NCBI GenBank assembly: GCA_022361115.1
Contig: JAKSBL010000376.1
Location: 1-32,234, forward strand
Source: Spirochaetota bacterium
GTDB lineage: Bacteria; Spirochaetota; GWE2-31-10
Length of the DNA stretch: 32,234 nt
Reading direction: 5' to 3'
Below the pieces are notes generated by a model. It saw nothing but the letters and a program-made list of their open reading frames with translations, ran no database searches and had not been told where the DNA came from. Shown here in pieces: positions 3,623 through 26,516 of the stretch (the stretch's first letter is position 1; each line of letters opens with the position of its first letter). The translations under genes were made by a program, and so were the position numbers.

Positions 3623-4170
3623 TCTTTACTCCAATATAATGAAATTATTTTGCTAATTGTTAACAGTACTATATTAATACTATATTAAATTTAAAATAGT
3701 ATTAGTATTTAGTAGGCATTGATAATATGTGAATAATCCATTTATCTTCTTGTTATACTGTAAGTTAGCAATCAGAATAGTATGTTAATACTTATGTTAA
3801 CAATGCAATAATATTAACAGATCAATAAGTTATTGACAAGTTATTTTGACCTTTTTCATAATTTATTTTCAATGAGAATTAGAATTTTATATGAATTGAT
3901 GGAGGGGAGTAGGACTTTGAGGGATCATTCAGACACTAAAGCTACTGATAATAAAATACTGAGTAACTTGTGAATAACTGAATCGTTTATTGGAGGTTAG
4001 AGAGGAGAGTCATGTAAATGCAAAAAAACTGGTTAGGAAGGTAAGATTGATAAATATAATTTATTTCATTTTTATCATTCTGCCTGAGATATTTATTTTG
4101 TTGATGAGAAAGCTTTTCATTGATCATTAGTTTTATTGGAGAAAAATAACAATATTAAGGAAGAGATTTG
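3623..4170. other. Candidate oriC subregion (dnaA-dnaN intergenic)
   Basis: 548-bp AT-rich non-coding gap with TGTGAATAA at 3728-3736 and 3969-3977 (DnaA-box-like, reverse TTATTCACA) and TTATTGACA at 3830-3838. Confidence 0.5.
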
Positions 4171-5610
4171 TTATTCTGATTTGATTTTATTGATCAGATG
4201 TTCAATATCACCTTTAATTTTTGAGTCTGTATTGGTGAGGTCTTCGATTTTTTTAGTAGCATGCATAACCGTTCCATGTTCTTTATTGCCAAAGTATGTT
4301 CCAATTTGAGTAGTGGAAAGACGGGTTAGTTTTCGCGAAAGGTACATGGCAATTTGACGGGCCAGGGCAATGGATTTTGTCCTTTTATTACCGATAATTT
4401 CCTGGGTTTTCACATCATAGTATTCCCCAACCATATGGATAATTTTATCTACAGATACCGAAGAAGTGTAAATATTTACAGTTATTTTTTCTTTTAAACG
4501 GTACATAACAATATCCAAGGTAATGGTTTCGATATTCATAATACTGGAATAAGCTAGTAGATCTTTAAAAGCCCCTTTTAAATCTCGGATATTCCCTTCA
4601 ATGTTGGTACAAATGTATTCCATGGCATCATTTTTAATGGTGAGACCGTAAGTATCAGAGAGAGTCTCTAAAATAGCCATTCTCAGCTCAAAATCCGGCG
4701 GACGGAGATCTACGGTTAAACCCATACTAAAACGGCCTTTTAGCCGGGCTTCCATTTTTTTTACCTTGTAAATCGGTTGATCACAGGAAAAGATCATTTG
4801 TTTATGGTTATCATAGAGTTTATTAAAGGTATGAAAAAATTCTCCCTGTATTCCCTCTTTATTTGCAAAAAACTGAACATCATCGATGAGTAAAACATCC
4901 AGTTGGCGATATTTAATACGAAACTTTTCCTGGGCACTTGACTTTAATGAATTAACAAAATCATTGGTAAATTCTTCAGATGAAACATATTTTGCCTTTT
5001 TGGTCGGAAAATATTCTCTTATGTGTTTTGCAATGGCTTTTAATAAGTGTGTCTTGCCCAATCCACTTTCGCCCCAGATAAAATAGGGATTGTATTTTGT
5101 TCCTGGATTTTCAGCTACAGCCTTTGCTGCATGTGCTGCAAATTCATTCGAGCTTCCAATAATAAAGGATTCAAAAGTATAGTTTTCATCTTCTGACTGG
5201 GGGTTCATGATTCCGGGCTGGTTGGTAGAAAGTGGAGGAAAAGGAATATTCTTAACTTCGTTTGCCGGAGAGGTAATGATCTGGGGATGGGGAGTACTGG
5301 TCTTGCTTTCAGGCGTTTCAACAGCAGATTTTTCTACTTTTGCCATCTCTGGTTTTGCTTTATCAATTTTAAATTCTACTGAACATTGATAACCTGAAAT
5401 ATGATTTAAGGTATCAGTAATGAGTTCTTGATATTTTAAAATGTTATCTTTAATAAAATTTGAGGGTACTGCTAAGGTCATTTTTTTTTCGTTTATGTTA
5501 AACTGATCATAATCAATACGATTGATCCACATAAACATTTCATTTTGAGACAGGACACTTTCTAATTCTTTTTTAACACCATCCCAATACATGGAATACA
5601 TGTCTGACAT
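4171..5610 (-). CDS. dnaA: Chromosomal replication initiator protein DnaA
   Basis: 479 aa; NYTFESFIIGSSNEFAAHAAKAVAENPG, WGESGLGKTHLLKAIA, LLIDDVQFF, GRFSMGLTVDLRPPD, C-terminal FGNKEHGTVMHATKKIE. Confidence 0.97.
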   Translation of the reverse strand: MSDMYSMYWDGVKKELESVLSQNEMFMWINRIDYDQFNINEKKMTLAVPSNFIKDNILKYQELITDTLNHISGYQCSVEFKIDKAKPEMAKVEKSAVETPESKTSTPHPQIITSPANEVKNIPFPPLSTNQPGIMNPQSEDENYTFESFIIGSSNEFAAHAAKAVAENPGTKYNPYFIWGESGLGKTHLLKAIAKHIREYFPTKKAKYVSSEEFTNDFVNSLKSSAQEKFRIKYRQLDVLLIDDVQFFANKEGIQGEFFHTFNKLYDNHKQMIFSCDQPIYKVKKMEARLKGRFSMGLTVDLRPPDFELRMAILETLSDTYGLTIKNDAMEYICTNIEGNIRDLKGAFKDLLAYSSIMNIETITLDIVMYRLKEKITVNIYTSSVSVDKIIHMVGEYYDVKTQEIIGNKRTKSIALARQIAMYLSRKLTRLSTTQIGTYFGNKEHGTVMHATKKIEDLTNTDSKIKGDIEHLINKIKSE

Positions 5611-8525: not shown

Positions 8526-11363
8526 ATGGTATTAAAGAAACTCATTGTTAACGGATTTAAGTCATTTTGTGATCATTCTGAAATCACTTTTGATAAAGGG
8601 ACATCCGCTATTGTTGGTCCCAATGGTTGCGGTAAGTCTAATATTGTGGATGCTATTAAATGGGTAATTGGTGAACAAAAAACCAGGATGCTCAGAGCTA
8701 ATAATATGACTGACGTAATATTTAAAGGGACTGAAGAAAAACGTGGTTTAGGACGTGCAGAAGTTAAATTGATTTTAGTGAATGATGATAATCTCTTACC
8801 ATTAGAATATAATGAAATTGAAATATCCAGAATTATTTATGCCTCAGGGGAAAACGAATATTATATCAACAAAGAAAGGGTGCGGCTAAAGGATATTCAG
8901 GAACTTTTCTTTGATACAGGAGTGGGTAAATCAGCCTACTCATTTATGGAACAGGGAAAGATCGATTTAATCCTTTCTACCAAACCTGAAGACCGCCGCT
9001 ATATTATTGAAGAAGCTGCAGGTATTACTCGTTATAAATCGAAGAAAGATGAATCCATAGCTAAACTCAAACAGTCAGATGAAAATATCATGCGGGTCAA
9101 AGATATCCTGAAAGAGGTGGAAGGACAGTATAAGCACATGAAGGATCAGGCTGAAAAAGCAATCCGTTATAAAGAACTCTATGAGAAAGAGATGAATCTG
9201 GAGATTGAGATCAACCTTAACCGGATCAGTCGCCAGAAAAAAATTCGAGATGAATTCAATGAAAAACTGGAAAGTGCTGAAAAATCATTAGAAGAGGTTA
9301 AAGAAAAAATTGATGCTCTGGAATCCACTGTTGCTGATAAAATGGTTCACTTAAATGAATTGGAAGTAAAAAAAATTGACAACCAGCGTTTCCATTTTCA
9401 AGTAGAAAGTGAAATGAAAGTCATTACTTCCAAGATCAATTTATTGAAGGACCAGTTACAATCTTTGCAGGCTGCATTAAAATCAGACCAGGAAAAAATT
9501 GAAGTTTCCAAAAATAAGATTGCTGAAATTGAAGAAGAAATTGCAGATATTGATGACAGTAAACAAGATGTGGCAAACCAGATCGGAAGTACAAATACAG
9601 ACATTCAGTTTTACCAGCAGTCTATTGAATCAGCTGATCTACAAGTAGCCGACTTAGAGCAAAAAATTACTAGCCTGAAAGATTTGATCACAGTTACTGG
9701 TAAAGAATTAGAAAACCAGCGGACAGCTCATCGAGAGATTACTGATGCATTAATTATCAAAATTAATCAGTCCTTAAATGAGCTGGCCATTAATGAAAAA
9801 GAAATCATGGATTTAAAAGGTAATCTGAATCAGAAAATTTCCGGTATTGCCGAAGAGATTCATTTTCGTAAAGCTTTTATTGATGATATATTAAAGACTG
9901 GATTAACGGATAATCAAAAAGATAAATATCTTAACATGCTGAAGGAACTTCAAAATTCATTAGGGTCGATTGAAGAAAAAATTTATGCCACCAATGGTGA
10001 TGTGAAAAAATTTATTCAGGCAACAGAAATGTTTGTCGATGATATTTTCAGTCCCGAAGGGGTGGTTCAGCAAAAACGTCAGGTTGAAAATCAAATTAAT
10101 CAGTTAAATGAAAAGATCAAACAATCCAATCAGCAGATCGAAGAATTCCAGAGTGATATTACTTCGGTTATCCAGTCAAAAGATAAAAATAGAGAAATTT
10201 TATCAGAGCTAAAAATCAATATGTCAACTTTGATTGAAAAACAAAATTCTATTGAAAAAGAATTAGAAAGAACATTATCATTAAAGAAGCTGCATCAAGA
10301 TACTTACAATGATCTGAAAATTCAGGTGAAACAGTCTCAAGACAAAATTGAAGATTGTGAGATTGATATTGATGATCAACAAGCTGAAATGGCCAGGCTG
10401 CAAAGAAAAAAAATTGATATAGAAAAATTTATTGAAGACCTGAATTTTCAAATACAAAAAGAAAATGCTTCCATGACAAAGCAGCAGCAGTCAATAAAAG
10501 AAATCAATGACCGCTGGATAAATAAAAAAAGTGATGTAGAAAAACTCAATATCAAGATTACTGAAGCAACGACGACTGTTAAAAATATTTATGATTCCTT
10601 TTATGAAAACTTCAGTATCAATCTCAGTGAATATGAATCAAAAGGTGGATTTATTACTAATCGTGCTTATGAAGATGTTCGTCGAGAACTCAGTAATGTA
10701 AGAAGTGAAAAATCTTCATTAGGAAATGTTAACCTTATGGCTATTGAAGAGAGCAAGATCCTGGAGGAAAGATATCAGTTGTTGACTGACCAGCTGAATG
10801 ATCTAGAGGAGGCCAAGGTTGATTTATTAAAAGTAATTGAAGAACTCAACCTGGTATCTCAGGAGTTGTTCTTAAAGACCTTTAATCAAATCAAGATCAA
10901 TTTCCATAAACTTTTCAGAAAATTATTTGATGGAGGAAATGCTGAGATTAAACTGAGTCAGCCGGATAATGTTTTGGAAAGCGGCATAGAGATTACTGCT
11001 CATCCTCCTGGACAAAAGACCCAAAGTATTACTTTGCTTTCTGGTGGCCAGCGAACCATGACTGCCATATCTTTAATGTTTGCTACATTTTTAGTAAAAC
11101 CTTCACCTTTTTGTTTACTGGATGAAATTGATGCTGCTTTGGATGAAGAAAATGTTACCCGTTTTGTAAACCTGGTGAGTGATTTTAAACAAACCAGTCA
11201 ATTTATTATTATTACGCATAATAAGAAAACCATATCAGCAGCAGATGTTATGTATGGTGTTACACAGGAACAAAGGGGTGTATCAAAGATTGTTTCTGCA
11301 AAACTAATCAATGCTAATGACATGAAAAATGAAACTGCTCCGGCTAGTGAGACATCAGCTTAA
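8526..11363 (+). CDS. smc: SMC-family chromosome segregation ATPase (short, apparently lacking canonical hinge)
   Basis: KKLIVNGFKSFCDHSEITFDKGTSAIVGPNGCGKSNIVDAIKWVIGEQ Walker A region, long coiled coils, C-terminal LLSGGQRTMTAISLMFATFLVKPSPFCLLDEIDAALDEENV. Confidence 0.93.
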   Translation: MVLKKLIVNGFKSFCDHSEITFDKGTSAIVGPNGCGKSNIVDAIKWVIGEQKTRMLRANNMTDVIFKGTEEKRGLGRAEVKLILVNDDNLLPLEYNEIEISRIIYASGENEYYINKERVRLKDIQELFFDTGVGKSAYSFMEQGKIDLILSTKPEDRRYIIEEAAGITRYKSKKDESIAKLKQSDENIMRVKDILKEVEGQYKHMKDQAEKAIRYKELYEKEMNLEIEINLNRISRQKKIRDEFNEKLESAEKSLEEVKEKIDALESTVADKMVHLNELEVKKIDNQRFHFQVESEMKVITSKINLLKDQLQSLQAALKSDQEKIEVSKNKIAEIEEEIADIDDSKQDVANQIGSTNTDIQFYQQSIESADLQVADLEQKITSLKDLITVTGKELENQRTAHREITDALIIKINQSLNELAINEKEIMDLKGNLNQKISGIAEEIHFRKAFIDDILKTGLTDNQKDKYLNMLKELQNSLGSIEEKIYATNGDVKKFIQATEMFVDDIFSPEGVVQQKRQVENQINQLNEKIKQSNQQIEEFQSDITSVIQSKDKNREILSELKINMSTLIEKQNSIEKELERTLSLKKLHQDTYNDLKIQVKQSQDKIEDCEIDIDDQQAEMARLQRKKIDIEKFIEDLNFQIQKENASMTKQQQSIKEINDRWINKKSDVEKLNIKITEATTTVKNIYDSFYENFSINLSEYESKGGFITNRAYEDVRRELSNVRSEKSSLGNVNLMAIEESKILEERYQLLTDQLNDLEEAKVDLLKVIEELNLVSQELFLKTFNQIKINFHKLFRKLFDGGNAEIKLSQPDNVLESGIEITAHPPGQKTQSITLLSGGQRTMTAISLMFATFLVKPSPFCLLDEIDAALDEENVTRFVNLVSDFKQTSQFIIITHNKKTISAADVMYGVTQEQRGVSKIVSAKLINANDMKNETAPASETSA

Positions 11364-11528: not shown

Positions 11529-11966
11529 ATGTCAGGTCTCAATCGCTTCAGAGAATTCGCTCATTCTTTATTAAAAAAAATTGATGATTTTGTCACACAT
11601 AATCTTAAAGAAGTGATCATTGTCATTGGCGTTTTTACTGGCATTATCATAGTGGGTACTATACTTTTTAGTGCCATTCTATCTTCTGGAAAATCAAAAA
11701 AAAATCCTTTGGTTATAGAGGAAACCAGAGAAACTCCTGTTGAGCAATCCTTAAATTATGATCAACTGGATTATTTATTAAAAGATAGTGTTGCCTATCC
11801 ACACCTTAAGTCTTTTGATGTAACCATGGATTATATTGATTTTATGCCTCTAAAAGCAGATTACCAACCAGATAAAGAAGCTTTTCAATATGAACTGGAT
11901 CAACTGATCCAAGTAACCCTGGAGGAGTCTTGCAAATTTAACTTTGAGAAGCGGAGGGGAAAATGA
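11529..11966 (+). CDS. Single-TM protein of unknown function
   Basis: 145 aa with one TM (EVIIVIGVFTGIIIVGTILFSAIL); overlaps next gene by 4 bp (ATGA), implying co-translation. Confidence 0.6.
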   Translation: MSGLNRFREFAHSLLKKIDDFVTHNLKEVIIVIGVFTGIIIVGTILFSAILSSGKSKKNPLVIEETRETPVEQSLNYDQLDYLLKDSVAYPHLKSFDVTMDYIDFMPLKADYQPDKEAFQYELDQLIQVTLEESCKFNFEKRRGK

Positions 11967-13588
11967 AAAAAATTATTGTTTTATTAATACCTGTTATATT
12001 GGCGGGCTGCTTAAGCCATTCTAATGTTTTTGTAAAAGATACTCCCATATCTCAAGACCAATCACCGAATAATATAATCACCAACTATCCAGATCAAGAT
12101 GAGCGTCAAGAAATGCTGAGTAAAAAAAATGAACCAATGGATGCAACTACCGATCTTGTAATAAGTGATAATAATGAAATTTTAAAAGAACAGATTACTT
12201 ATAAAAAGCAGGAATTAGAAAAAAAGCAAATTGTGACAAAGACAAATTCTGATCTAGTAAAAAAAACCATTCCAACTCAATCCAAAGAAAAATCAATAAA
12301 CAGAGAAGAAAACTCAACAGAAACAGTGGATAAAAAATATATGGAAACTTCTGCTATTGAACAAAAAAATAATGATTTTCCAGAACAATTCCCTGCACCA
12401 GATAAAGAAAAAAAACAAAATAAAGTTGTGAAAAAAAAGCAGCAAAAGAAAGATAAAATTCTTAACAAAAAAGAAACCCTTAAATCTATACCTGTTAATT
12501 TAAAGACTTTTAATCAGGAATATTTTCCATTGATTACTCAAAATCAAAATCAAATTAATTATCAAAATCTGGACCTGGATAATATAAAAATTGTTGAACA
12601 GGAAGCGTCTGTAATTAATGCAGAAGAAAATAAAGAACTCAATATCTCTTTGAAACAACCCAACTGGATTTTAAAAAGCTCTTCTCCTGTTGCATTGCCT
12701 TTATTGAGCCGTGAAAATCTGAAGAACAGCACATCCTTTCGATTTCAATTATCTTCACCCCAAGATTACCAATTGCTTTTTATTCGGTATAGTGAAATGG
12801 AAAATACGATTTATCGCAAGCCTTTTCAAATTGTGGTAAAAGCAAGACGAATTTTTATTATGAAGCAGGATGAAGAATTTCCTGATAGTGAAGCAAAAAT
12901 TATTACTTTTCATGAGGATTCAGGTTCTGAAGCAGATCAGACTCAGGAAAAAGCAGCTCAACCTGAGGTTGAACAGGAAGATTTTCGGCTGGATTTGGCT
13001 AACCGTTTATTTGATCAGGGCAAGTATAAAGAGGCAAAAAATCGCTTTGAAAGTGTGATTAAAGATGGATATTCAGATCCTGAGCTATTTTATAAATTAG
13101 GAGTTATTGAAAAGGCTGATGGAAATCTGGAACAAGCCAAAACTCACTTTGAGAACAACATGAATGACCAGGAAAATATCTATTACATCAAAGCTCTGCT
13201 GGAATATATTAATTTATTAAAAGAGCAAAATAAAAATCAGCAAGCATTGGATGCAATTTATAATCGAGGTTTTTCTTTAGAATTAGCAGAAGAAGATGCA
13301 GAAGAGCTGTCATTGTTATTAGCCGATGTTTATTATAACATGGCTGATTATTTTGAAGCTTCCCGTGAATATCAACGTTTTGTTCAACAATTTCCACATT
13401 CTTCTGCTATTGATAAAGCTCTTTTTTATCTAGCCTATGCAATGGAAAGCTATTTAAATAACCCAGATTATAAAGAATCAGCCCGCTTATATCAAAGAAT
13501 ATTAAATGAGTATCCTGAGTCAAATTATTTTTATTTAAGTAAAAATCGATTGTTATATTTAAAAAGACATTTTTTAAATATTTATTAA
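11963..13588 (+). CDS. TPR-repeat lipoprotein
   Basis: Lipobox MKKIIVLLIPVILAGC, Lys/Gln-rich linker, C-terminal TPR-like helices (LANRLFDQGKYKEAKNRFESVIKDG, LADVYYNMADYFEASREYQRFVQQFPHS). Confidence 0.75.
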   Translation: MKKIIVLLIPVILAGCLSHSNVFVKDTPISQDQSPNNIITNYPDQDERQEMLSKKNEPMDATTDLVISDNNEILKEQITYKKQELEKKQIVTKTNSDLVKKTIPTQSKEKSINREENSTETVDKKYMETSAIEQKNNDFPEQFPAPDKEKKQNKVVKKKQQKKDKILNKKETLKSIPVNLKTFNQEYFPLITQNQNQINYQNLDLDNIKIVEQEASVINAEENKELNISLKQPNWILKSSSPVALPLLSRENLKNSTSFRFQLSSPQDYQLLFIRYSEMENTIYRKPFQIVVKARRIFIMKQDEEFPDSEAKIITFHEDSGSEADQTQEKAAQPEVEQEDFRLDLANRLFDQGKYKEAKNRFESVIKDGYSDPELFYKLGVIEKADGNLEQAKTHFENNMNDQENIYYIKALLEYINLLKEQNKNQQALDAIYNRGFSLELAEEDAEELSLLLADVYYNMADYFEASREYQRFVQQFPHSSAIDKALFYLAYAMESYLNNPDYKESARLYQRILNEYPESNYFYLSKNRLLYLKRHFLNIY

Positions 13589-13606
13589 AGGGATTGGTTT
13601 TTTTAA

Positions 13607-13622
13607 TGTTTCACGTGAAACA
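13607..13622. promoter_or_regulatory. parS site 1
   Basis: TGTTTCACGTGAAACA, perfect 16-bp palindrome matching the consensus ParB-binding parS. Confidence 0.92.
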
Positions 13623-13645
13623 ATTTGAAGATTATTAATGTTGAA

Positions 13646-13661
13646 TGTTTCACGTGAAACA
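13646..13661. promoter_or_regulatory. parS site 2
   Basis: Second identical TGTTTCACGTGAAACA, 39 bp from the first. Confidence 0.92.
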
Positions 13662-13666
13662 TGGAT

Positions 13667-15160
13667 TTAAAAACCTATGTATCTGGCTAAAATCATAGTC
13701 ATATCATCTTTTCTATTATTATCACAATAGTGGAGAACTTCCGAAAAAATCAATTCTTTAATATCTTCAACACTTTGATCCGCATTTAATTCAATAATAT
13801 CCATAAGCCATTCAACACCATTAAGTTGATTGTCTTTATCTTTAGCTTCAATGATGCCATCAGTATAAATGCAGAGAATATCTCCTGTTTGCAATTGTAT
13901 AACCTGATCTTCTAAGGAATCAGAAATATCCTTCAGCAATCCTAAATAAATACCCTTTGTTTTATACTGGACACATTTTTTATCTTCTTGGTGATATACT
14001 ATAAGATCGGTATGCGAGCCGGCATGTAAAAATTTTCCATTTCCTTTATATTTCATAAATACCATTGTCATAAATTGGCTTTCTTTTAAACGTTCACGAA
14101 CATTTTCATTTAATATGTGATTGACTAATTGAATAGCAATTTTAGGCGTAATTTCAGTAATCCCTGTAACATGGGAATTAAAAGAAGTTTGCGCCATCAT
14201 CATGATTAAACCAGGAGTGACACCATGACCGGAAACATCTCCTATGGCAAACCACATATTGCCCATAAAATCATAAACAATATCGTAGTAATCACCACCC
14301 ACTTCTTCTGCTGTTTGCATACCAGCAGAAATTTCAAAATCGGGATGAGTGATAACTGGTGGACAAAGGGAAGTTTGAATGCGTTGAGCTATTTCCATTT
14401 CTCCTCTTAATCGTATTCTCTCTTTTTCTTTAGTAATGCTTTCTTTTATTTTTTCAGCCATATCATTTGTACAAATTGCCAGATGGCCTAATTCATCTTG
14501 GGATTTGATTTGAACCCTTTCATCTAGTTCCATTTGTGAAAATTTATAAACGACTCTGTTTAACTCAGTAATAGGTTTTAGGATTATTCTGTTTAAGCTG
14601 ATTATTAAAACTAAAAACAGGACAAAAGCTAAAGTTGAAAATTGAATAATCGTTTTCGAGATGAGGCCATATATTTTTATTTTTAAAGGATGATCCGTTG
14701 TATATAATTCTAATGTACCTAAAGTCTCATGAATGCCATTTGATTGAAAGATAATTTTTGAAGTCAGGGTTTCATATGCTTTAGATCGTAATTTTTCAGG
14801 CTGATAATTTTCCTTTACTAGTTCAATGTATTCTCCGTTGTCATTTTTTTGCAATCCATAGTATAAATTTGTGTTATTGTTTTTAATGACAATTGCCAGG
14901 ATATAATCCTTCCATAAAGACATTGAAACAAGTTTTCTCACATCACCATCATTATAATTCCAAAGGGGGTCGGTAATACTGAAAACTAATCGTTCCAGCT
15001 CTTTTTTGGACTCCTCTGAAAGTTTATTTCTTTCTAAGGAGCTTTCTCTGGCAAATACAATGACGGAAATAATAACAGTGATGATCAAAATAAAGAGACC
15101 TAAAAAAATGAGAAGCTTGGAAGTTAATGTTGTCTTTAGTCGATAATTTGGTCTTTTCAT
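13667..15160 (-). CDS. Membrane sensor-HAMP-PP2C (SpoIIE/RsbU-type) serine phosphatase
   Basis: N-terminal TM, extracytoplasmic sensor with DPLWNYNDGDVRKLV, second TM, HAMP, then AQRIQTSLCPP...EVGGDYYDIV...FAIGDVSGHGVTPGLIMM...LCIYTDGIIEAKD. Confidence 0.92.
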   Translation of the reverse strand: MKRPNYRLKTTLTSKLLIFLGLFILIITVIISVIVFARESSLERNKLSEESKKELERLVFSITDPLWNYNDGDVRKLVSMSLWKDYILAIVIKNNNTNLYYGLQKNDNGEYIELVKENYQPEKLRSKAYETLTSKIIFQSNGIHETLGTLELYTTDHPLKIKIYGLISKTIIQFSTLAFVLFLVLIISLNRIILKPITELNRVVYKFSQMELDERVQIKSQDELGHLAICTNDMAEKIKESITKEKERIRLRGEMEIAQRIQTSLCPPVITHPDFEISAGMQTAEEVGGDYYDIVYDFMGNMWFAIGDVSGHGVTPGLIMMMAQTSFNSHVTGITEITPKIAIQLVNHILNENVRERLKESQFMTMVFMKYKGNGKFLHAGSHTDLIVYHQEDKKCVQYKTKGIYLGLLKDISDSLEDQVIQLQTGDILCIYTDGIIEAKDKDNQLNGVEWLMDIIELNADQSVEDIKELIFSEVLHYCDNNRKDDMTMILARYIGF

Positions 15161-17632: not shown

Positions 17633-18358
17633 ATGTGCTCTTACTTAAAAAAAACAACATTTCGATTGCTATGTTTAGTGATCATTCTCAATACCTCCTT
17701 TTCTTTTGAAAATAATATCCTAAAATTAGAAATACTGTCAGATTTAATAGAAATTGAAATAAAAGATGCCCTTTGGGAATTTAATGATGACAGAGTTAAT
17801 GAAGTTATGCATATAGCCATGGAAAGTTCGATCATTACATCCAGTCTTTTTTTTGATCATAATGACCAGCTCTATAATGCTATTGTAAAAGATTATGGTG
17901 ATCAATACATCATCGTGAAATCTCAAAAAGAATTACAGATTATTGATCCTTTTTTAGTTAAATCCATTAAAACTCAAGGAAATTATTTAGGTTTTTACAT
18001 TTTAACATACCAGGAACATTTACTATACACTGGGGAAGATAATTTTGATTTTACTGTTAATATGATTTCAAAATTTATGGGTGCTTTACTCTGGAATTAT
18101 AATTATAAAGTTATAAATACCTATCTGAGCTGGTTACTCGATCATAAAAATTTAGAGTATAACATTGTTTGTGCCCTTATCTGTAATCATAACAATAAAA
18201 TTTTGACTGGGTATCAAAAACTACAGGATAATCAATTACAGGTTATAAAAAATTCAGAAGAATTACCTAACTATTTTATGATAAAAAAACAGGAAATATT
18301 TTATTCGGATAGAAAATTAGGTGAGTTAATCATCTACTATCATTATGCAGATTTTTGA
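17633..18358 (+). CDS. Secreted protein with two tandem sensor-like modules, no recognisable effector
   Basis: Signal peptide-like start, RBS GGAGG; repeats begin ALWEFNDDRVNEVM and LLWNYNYKVINTYL and end LGFYILTY / LGELIIYY, as in the sensor of the phosphatase at 13667-15160. Confidence 0.65.
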   Translation: MCSYLKKTTFRLLCLVIILNTSFSFENNILKLEILSDLIEIEIKDALWEFNDDRVNEVMHIAMESSIITSSLFFDHNDQLYNAIVKDYGDQYIIVKSQKELQIIDPFLVKSIKTQGNYLGFYILTYQEHLLYTGEDNFDFTVNMISKFMGALLWNYNYKVINTYLSWLLDHKNLEYNIVCALICNHNNKILTGYQKLQDNQLQVIKNSEELPNYFMIKKQEIFYSDRKLGELIIYYHYADF

Positions 18359-18411
18359 ATGAAACTTCACTTGACAAAGCCTGTCTATTCAAGGTAAGGT
18401 ACAGATAAGAA

Positions 18412-18624
18412 AAACAGGTGGCCAGATAGCGAGGCAGAATAGGGAAGCAGGTGGAAATCCTGCACTAATGGATTAGCTGTAAACGGGGATGAAATAACCA
18501 GCTCTATTTAACGATAGGTTAAAAGTACAGAGAAGGTCACTGTTCTTGTACTCACAATTTTGAGTATTGAGGATGGGAAGATGGTTGAGAGTAAGTAGAT
18601 CCGTAAGTCAGAAGACCTGCCTGA
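18412..18624 (+). ncRNA. Cobalamin riboswitch
   Basis: ACAGGTGG...AATAGGGAAGCAGGTGGAAATCCTGC...AGCTGTAA...GGTCACTG...GAGGATGGGAAG...AAGTCAGAAGACCTGCC match conserved cobalamin-riboswitch segments; immediately upstream of cbi operon. Confidence 0.92.
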
Positions 18625-18729
18625 TAACCAATTTTTATTATCTCTTTATTAAATACTTCTTATTTGTCTTTCTTTTCCTCTGGTTTTCTTATTTATAACA
18701 TCGGTTCTATATCAAAAACAGGATTTGTA

Positions 18730-26333: not shown

Positions 26334-26362
26334 TTGACAAGGCAGTATGATTTTAGTATATT
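26334..26362 (+). promoter_or_regulatory. Sigma70-type promoter of the TonB/B12 uptake operon
   Basis: TTGACA (26334-26339) - 17 nt - TATATT (26357-26362). Confidence 0.7.
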
Positions 26363-26368
26363 ATTTCT

Positions 26369-26516
26369 TGAATAATCAAAGAAAGAGAAGTGAAAGTCTT
26401 CCGCTAGCCCGTAACTGTGATTTTAACTTAACTTGATAAGTTAGATAAGTCAGGTCGTTTGATATTCGCAAATCTATTATATTCATGACTTCGAGGATAG
26501 AGTCGGGAATATACCA
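26369..26516 (+). ncRNA. Compact/variant cobalamin-riboswitch-like leader
   Basis: GAAGTGAAAGTCTTCCGCTAGCCCGTAACTGTGAT resembles the conserved GGTGAAA-TCC...CCCGCAACTGTGA core; AAGTCAGGTCG and a downstream GACTTCGAGGATAGAGTCGGGAATATACC element; upstream of btuB-type operon. 3' boundary uncertain. Confidence 0.65.

Follow-up and report, generated by a model that had tools for sequence, protein, structure and literature searches.

The window, by which we mean the whole stretch of 32,234 nucleotides that was analysed, is one whole contig of a draft Spirochaetota genome (5.3 Mb, 734 contigs, 86% complete, 5.9% contamination). It carries dnaA, smc and a 78-bp gap between two convergent genes (13589-13666), in which both copies of the palindrome TGTTTCACGTGAAACA are found (Table 1). 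An earlier note on this DNA had described two perfect parS palindromes in a convergent gap, 39 bp centre to centre and about 8 kb from dnaA; both copies proved to be exact, and the distance from the pair to the dnaA start codon (5610) was measured as 8.0 kb. The longer, 18-bp palindrome around the second copy reads ATGTTTCACGTGAAACAT. The end of smc is 2.2 kb to the left of the pair, with two ORFs intervening. Duplication of a larger segment was rejected as the source of the pair, as the flanks of the two copies have only AATGTTTCACGTGAAACA in common.

Table 1. Features of the window discussed in the text (positions of the whole stretch).
Feature	Positions	Strand	Basis or remark
Likely origin region around dnaA	3623-6143	n/a	the window's only three exact TTATNCACA boxes
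dnaA, origin marker	4171-5610	-	translation; homologues in 54 of 60 relatives
smc, Smc ATPase of 945 aa with canonical heads and no canonical hinge, presumed client loaded at parS	8526-11363	+	TIGR02168, 781 bits, above cut-off
TPR-repeat protein, 541 aa, left convergent neighbour	11963-13588	+	ORF; TPR families
parS copy 1	13607-13622	n/a	TGTTTCACGTGAAACA, perfect 16-bp palindrome, exact match
Spacer of 23 bp separating the two parS copies	13623-13645	n/a	39 bp centre to centre
parS copy 2	13646-13661	n/a	TGTTTCACGTGAAACA, exact; within 18-bp palindrome 13645-13662
HAMP and SpoIIE-type phosphatase, 497 aa, right convergent neighbour	13667-15160	-	PF07228, E 2e-36

The exact TTATNCACA boxes found by scanning the window start at 3728, 3969 and 6135, in the gaps around dnaA, which is consistent with oriC likely being near dnaA. 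This placement of oriC is put conditionally because, once one mismatch is allowed, the window has about as many TTATNCACA boxes in total as chance would give. Elsewhere in the window, the N-terminal half of the SpoIIE-type phosphatase and a 241-aa protein (17633-18358) have a weakly similar sensor-like segment with an LWxxND motif (E 3e-05). There are also two cobalamin riboswitches (18399-18638 and 26352-26515), of which one precedes a cobalamin biosynthesis cluster and the other ExbB/TonB-like and outer-membrane receptor genes.

Occurrence of the palindrome in the genome

Apart from this pair, the window has no copy of TGTTTCACGTGAAACA even with three mismatches allowed, and the genome-wide search for the 16-mer, which had been proposed as a check, returned no third copy at up to two mismatches in the 5.3 Mb of the draft. 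A reversed-pattern control gave no matches under these conditions; from the base composition (5.3 Mb, 33% GC), 0.0019 exact copies would be expected by chance. The palindrome is therefore not present as many copies spread uniformly, the distribution that was named in advance as speaking against parS; the two copies are not scattered. As the genome is a draft, more parS sites could be missing from it.

Partitioning proteins and the identity of the sites

The earlier note had implied a ParABS system with parA and parB outside the window, and both genes are indeed encoded elsewhere in the genome. The single ParB-family protein that was found (L003, 310 aa) has ParB_N, HTH_ParB and ParB_C domains, a GERR nucleotide motif read in the translation, and, near the N-terminus, LGKGLDALL, a type of segment through which ParB contacts ParA; the ParA gene is upstream of parB and overlaps it. 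ScpA and ScpB are encoded close together in a recA-folK-scpA-scpB segment (the names recA and folK being read from the sequences). The parAB genes are on a separate 7-kb contig, therefore any linkage between them and parS is invisible in the draft. The identities of ParB (about 62-66%), DnaA (about 62-63%) and Smc (about 55-60%) to the same relatives argue that the parAB contig and the parS contig come from one organism.

Among the NCBIfam models, this ParB matches Noc best (243.6 bits, under the cut-off of 315), which raises the possibility that the sites are Noc-binding sites or other palindromic operators and not parS. However, the site sequence is the parS consensus, and the genome yielded a single ParB-family protein. 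The residues that govern site recognition have been assigned as R and G for the parS type and as Q, K, K and R for the Noc type (PMC7383237). In alignments, the protein has GKSR and TPGHAR where Noc has GKGQ and TERHAR, i.e. R and G at the Noc Q and R positions, pointing to parS-type recognition and contradicting the Noc reading. Neither an NBS-type site nor the residues Q, K, K and R were found, and we regard this reading as barely credible.

What was found at the locus and in the genome is instead what would be looked for in a chromosomal parS: a 16-bp palindrome in few, origin-proximal and unscattered copies, together with a cognate ParB with parS-type residues and a ParA. The match to the canonical chromosomal ParB site noticed earlier was thus borne out by an exact consensus palindrome and a suitable ParB. 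We conclude from the sequences that the two palindromes are almost certainly the chromosomal parS centromere of a ParABS system, at which ParB is predicted to bind in this organism.

Conservation among relatives

At up to one mismatch, TGTTTCACGTGAAACA was present in 42 of 60 relatives, normally in one to three copies each, while the reversed control pattern was positive in 1 of 60. Within the same family and order, parS was found 8-28 kb from dnaA wherever the two share a contig. The flanking genes mostly differ between lineages, being convergent here and mostly divergent pairs in relatives, and a conserved gene context was rejected, as no gene of the window flanks parS in the same-family loci. 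Retention of the palindrome while its surroundings turn over is as predicted for a protein-binding site. Within this family and order parS and parB never share a contig, and in other Spirochaetota families parS is often within or beside parB.

These comparisons also bear on the possibility that the inverted repeat is a bidirectional transcription terminator serving the two convergent genes. In favour of it, RNA copies of the two sites can pair over a long hairpin (-30.9 kcal/mol, z -5.1) within the 78-bp convergent gap. Such pairing, however, is expected of any two copies of a palindrome; no terminator-like site was detected, and a T tract precedes the hairpin and an A tract follows it, the reverse of the arrangement in a bidirectional terminator. 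In relatives, TGTTTCACGTGAAACA is mostly a single copy situated in divergent gaps or inside parB. A terminator is therefore very unlikely indeed as an explanation of the pair, and parS is kept as the reading in what follows.

In six mostly single-contig relatives (G010, G025, G032, G036, G039 and G057), the distance between parS and dnaA is 275 kb to 1.4 Mb; two of them, G010 and G032, have this distant parS directly beside parB. For these six, either dnaA is not an origin marker or parS is not origin-proximal.

Smc without a canonical hinge

The earlier note attached special interest to the parS pair if the Smc encoded here lacks a hinge, and a canonical hinge is absent. The heads are about 50% identical to Bacillus subtilis head fragments in structural alignments. 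A Pfam search found no PF06470 (SMC_hinge) in the Smc of this genome or of 35 aligned relatives, and no hinge match anywhere in the 60 relative genomes, with 10 of 14 control genomes positive. Of the parts of a canonical Smc-ScpAB, the head ATPase and coiled-coil arms of Smc and both ScpA and ScpB are present; only the PF06470 hinge was not found. A recognisable hinge in Smc was found in 0 of 393 Spirochaetota genomes. Five weak PF06470 matches occurred across these 393 genomes and were rejected as Smc hinges: one is in a Wadjet JetC, one shares its contig with a JetB-like ORF, and the other three are separated by more than 20 kb from the Smc match of their genome. As a separate observation, Wadjet JetABC defence genes are present in one spirochaete (G115; L249, PADLOC), and the JetB-like ORF is in another (G318; L250).

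In the AlphaFold model of Smc (mean pLDDT 80, pTM 0.47), the helices 248-457, 465-508 and 513-696 are unbroken, and the stretch that joins the two head halves contains no strands. Conservation is higher at the turn near 508-517 than in the arms, and reaches at least 90% at Lys517. The model suggests an all-helical turn in place of the hinge, with a conserved [LI][FY]xxEG[IT]xxxKE-like motif, and the same appears to hold across the sampled Spirochaetota. In a literature search of partial coverage, no paper stating that spirochaete Smc is hinge-less was found. What deserves further work is this hinge-less Smc, which characterises the phylum rather than the parS site.

The position of the pair just beyond smc had been read as meaningful, a reading that did not hold, as relatives of the same family and order have smc either 37-38 kb away from parS or on a different contig. 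Since this linkage is not conserved, the adjacency is incidental, and parS with adjacent smc was rejected as a functional unit.

Close pairing and spacing of parS

Two parS copies less than 132 bp apart were not found in any other of the 60 relatives. Pairs of exact copies separated by 8-38 bp were present in 7 of a sample of 393 Spirochaetota genomes, belonging to five genera and with spacers of 20-33 bp. A separate scan of one genome per species of bacteria and archaea gave such pairs on at least 119 contigs, from Firmicutes, Actinobacteria, Proteobacteria, Bacteroidetes and others. These numbers make the parS pair a recurrent and unremarkable form.

Among the matches listed, pooled centre-to-centre distances were high at 35-41 and 46-49 bp and low at 29-34 bp. 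After removal of near-identical spacers, the 123 deduplicated close pairs among these matches gave a 10.5-bp component (R 0.26; smoothed null, p about 4e-4) whose phase is close to half a turn; under stricter clustering of the same matches (n=41), p was 0.014. A weak helical spacing preference of close parS pairs was observed, which is suggestive only. It can be taken as a lead and no further because the test was post hoc, the pooled sample is confined to the matches listed and uneven, leaning to Clostridia, and the signal is weaker under stricter clustering. In a scan at larger distances, adjacent parS pairs were few, too few for phasing. The two copies here had been called phased; 39 bp is in fact 3.7 helical turns, i.e. 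out of phase, and the clustering of pooled close pairs is itself post hoc, so the term was not upheld.

The pair could also be a specialised compact Smc loading module, in which two helically arranged ParB clamps beside smc are fitted to a hinge-less Smc. The lack of a hinge speaks for such a module, as does the 39-bp distance, which falls in the first of the classes (36-41 and 46-49 bp) favoured by the pooled close pairs among the matches listed. However, the other 59 relatives share the hinge-less Smc and none of them has such a pair, the few close pairs in the phylum are spread over several genera with different spacers, such pairs are common in other phyla, and smc is unlinked to parS in relatives. 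We therefore consider a specialised module very unlikely, and an ordinary parS centromere with two neighbouring copies is the reading that we prefer.

Proposed mechanism and comparison with known systems

Each step beyond the identification of the site and the genes is one that we infer by analogy with studied relatives. ParB dimers would bind at each of the two palindromes and, on closing, form CTP-dependent sliding clamps that spread onto the flanking DNA. The spread ParB would then engage ParA, leading to segregation, and may recruit Smc-ScpAB, resulting in organisation of the origin region. The second parS copy would most likely just provide more ParB nucleation at one spot.

If ParB at parS loads Smc in this way, the condensin being loaded would be one whose hinge has been lost phylum-wide in Spirochaetota and which has an all-helical apex instead, so that loading would be independent of the hinge dimer interface. 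A separate suggestion is that close parS pairs may prefer a spacing that puts ParB dimers about half a helical turn out of phase. We would give the two proposals, taken jointly, an even chance of being right.

As in bacterial chromosomal parS systems generally, the same 16-bp palindrome is present here in one to a few copies near dnaA, with ParA, ParB and Smc-ScpAB encoded in the genome. There are two differences from the typical arrangement: parAB is not beside parS (it is on another contig, as it is elsewhere in the order), and the two sites are unusually close for Spirochaetota. Clustered parS sites are known from Myxococcus xanthus, in which an array has 22 sites in about 3 kb (PMC3899335); like that array and the close pairs of other bacteria, the sites here are clustered, although there are only two of them. 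The parS pair is one more example of a well-known centromere, and its value is in its context, namely that the full set of ParA, ParB, parS and ScpAB is retained in an uncultured spirochaete whose Smc is hinge-less. In most of the Spirochaetota sampled, ParB and ScpA at least appear to have been kept.

Recruitment of SMC by a ParB bound to parS near oriC is known from Borrelia burgdorferi (PMC9712426, PMC10406323). This member of the same phylum likewise has an origin-proximal parS, but it has one parS, no ScpB, and ParZ for ParA (PMC9712426, PMC10406323), whereas the genome described here encodes ScpB and a ParB with LGKGLDALL. Since ParB recruits SMC at parS in Borrelia, spirochaetes could be used to test whether ParB-dependent loading needs the hinge, and with the gene set found here the role of the hinge in this loading is directly testable. 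In 0.9-Mb single-contig relatives, which are of the size of the Borrelia chromosome, Smc is 817 aa long and has no Pfam hinge.
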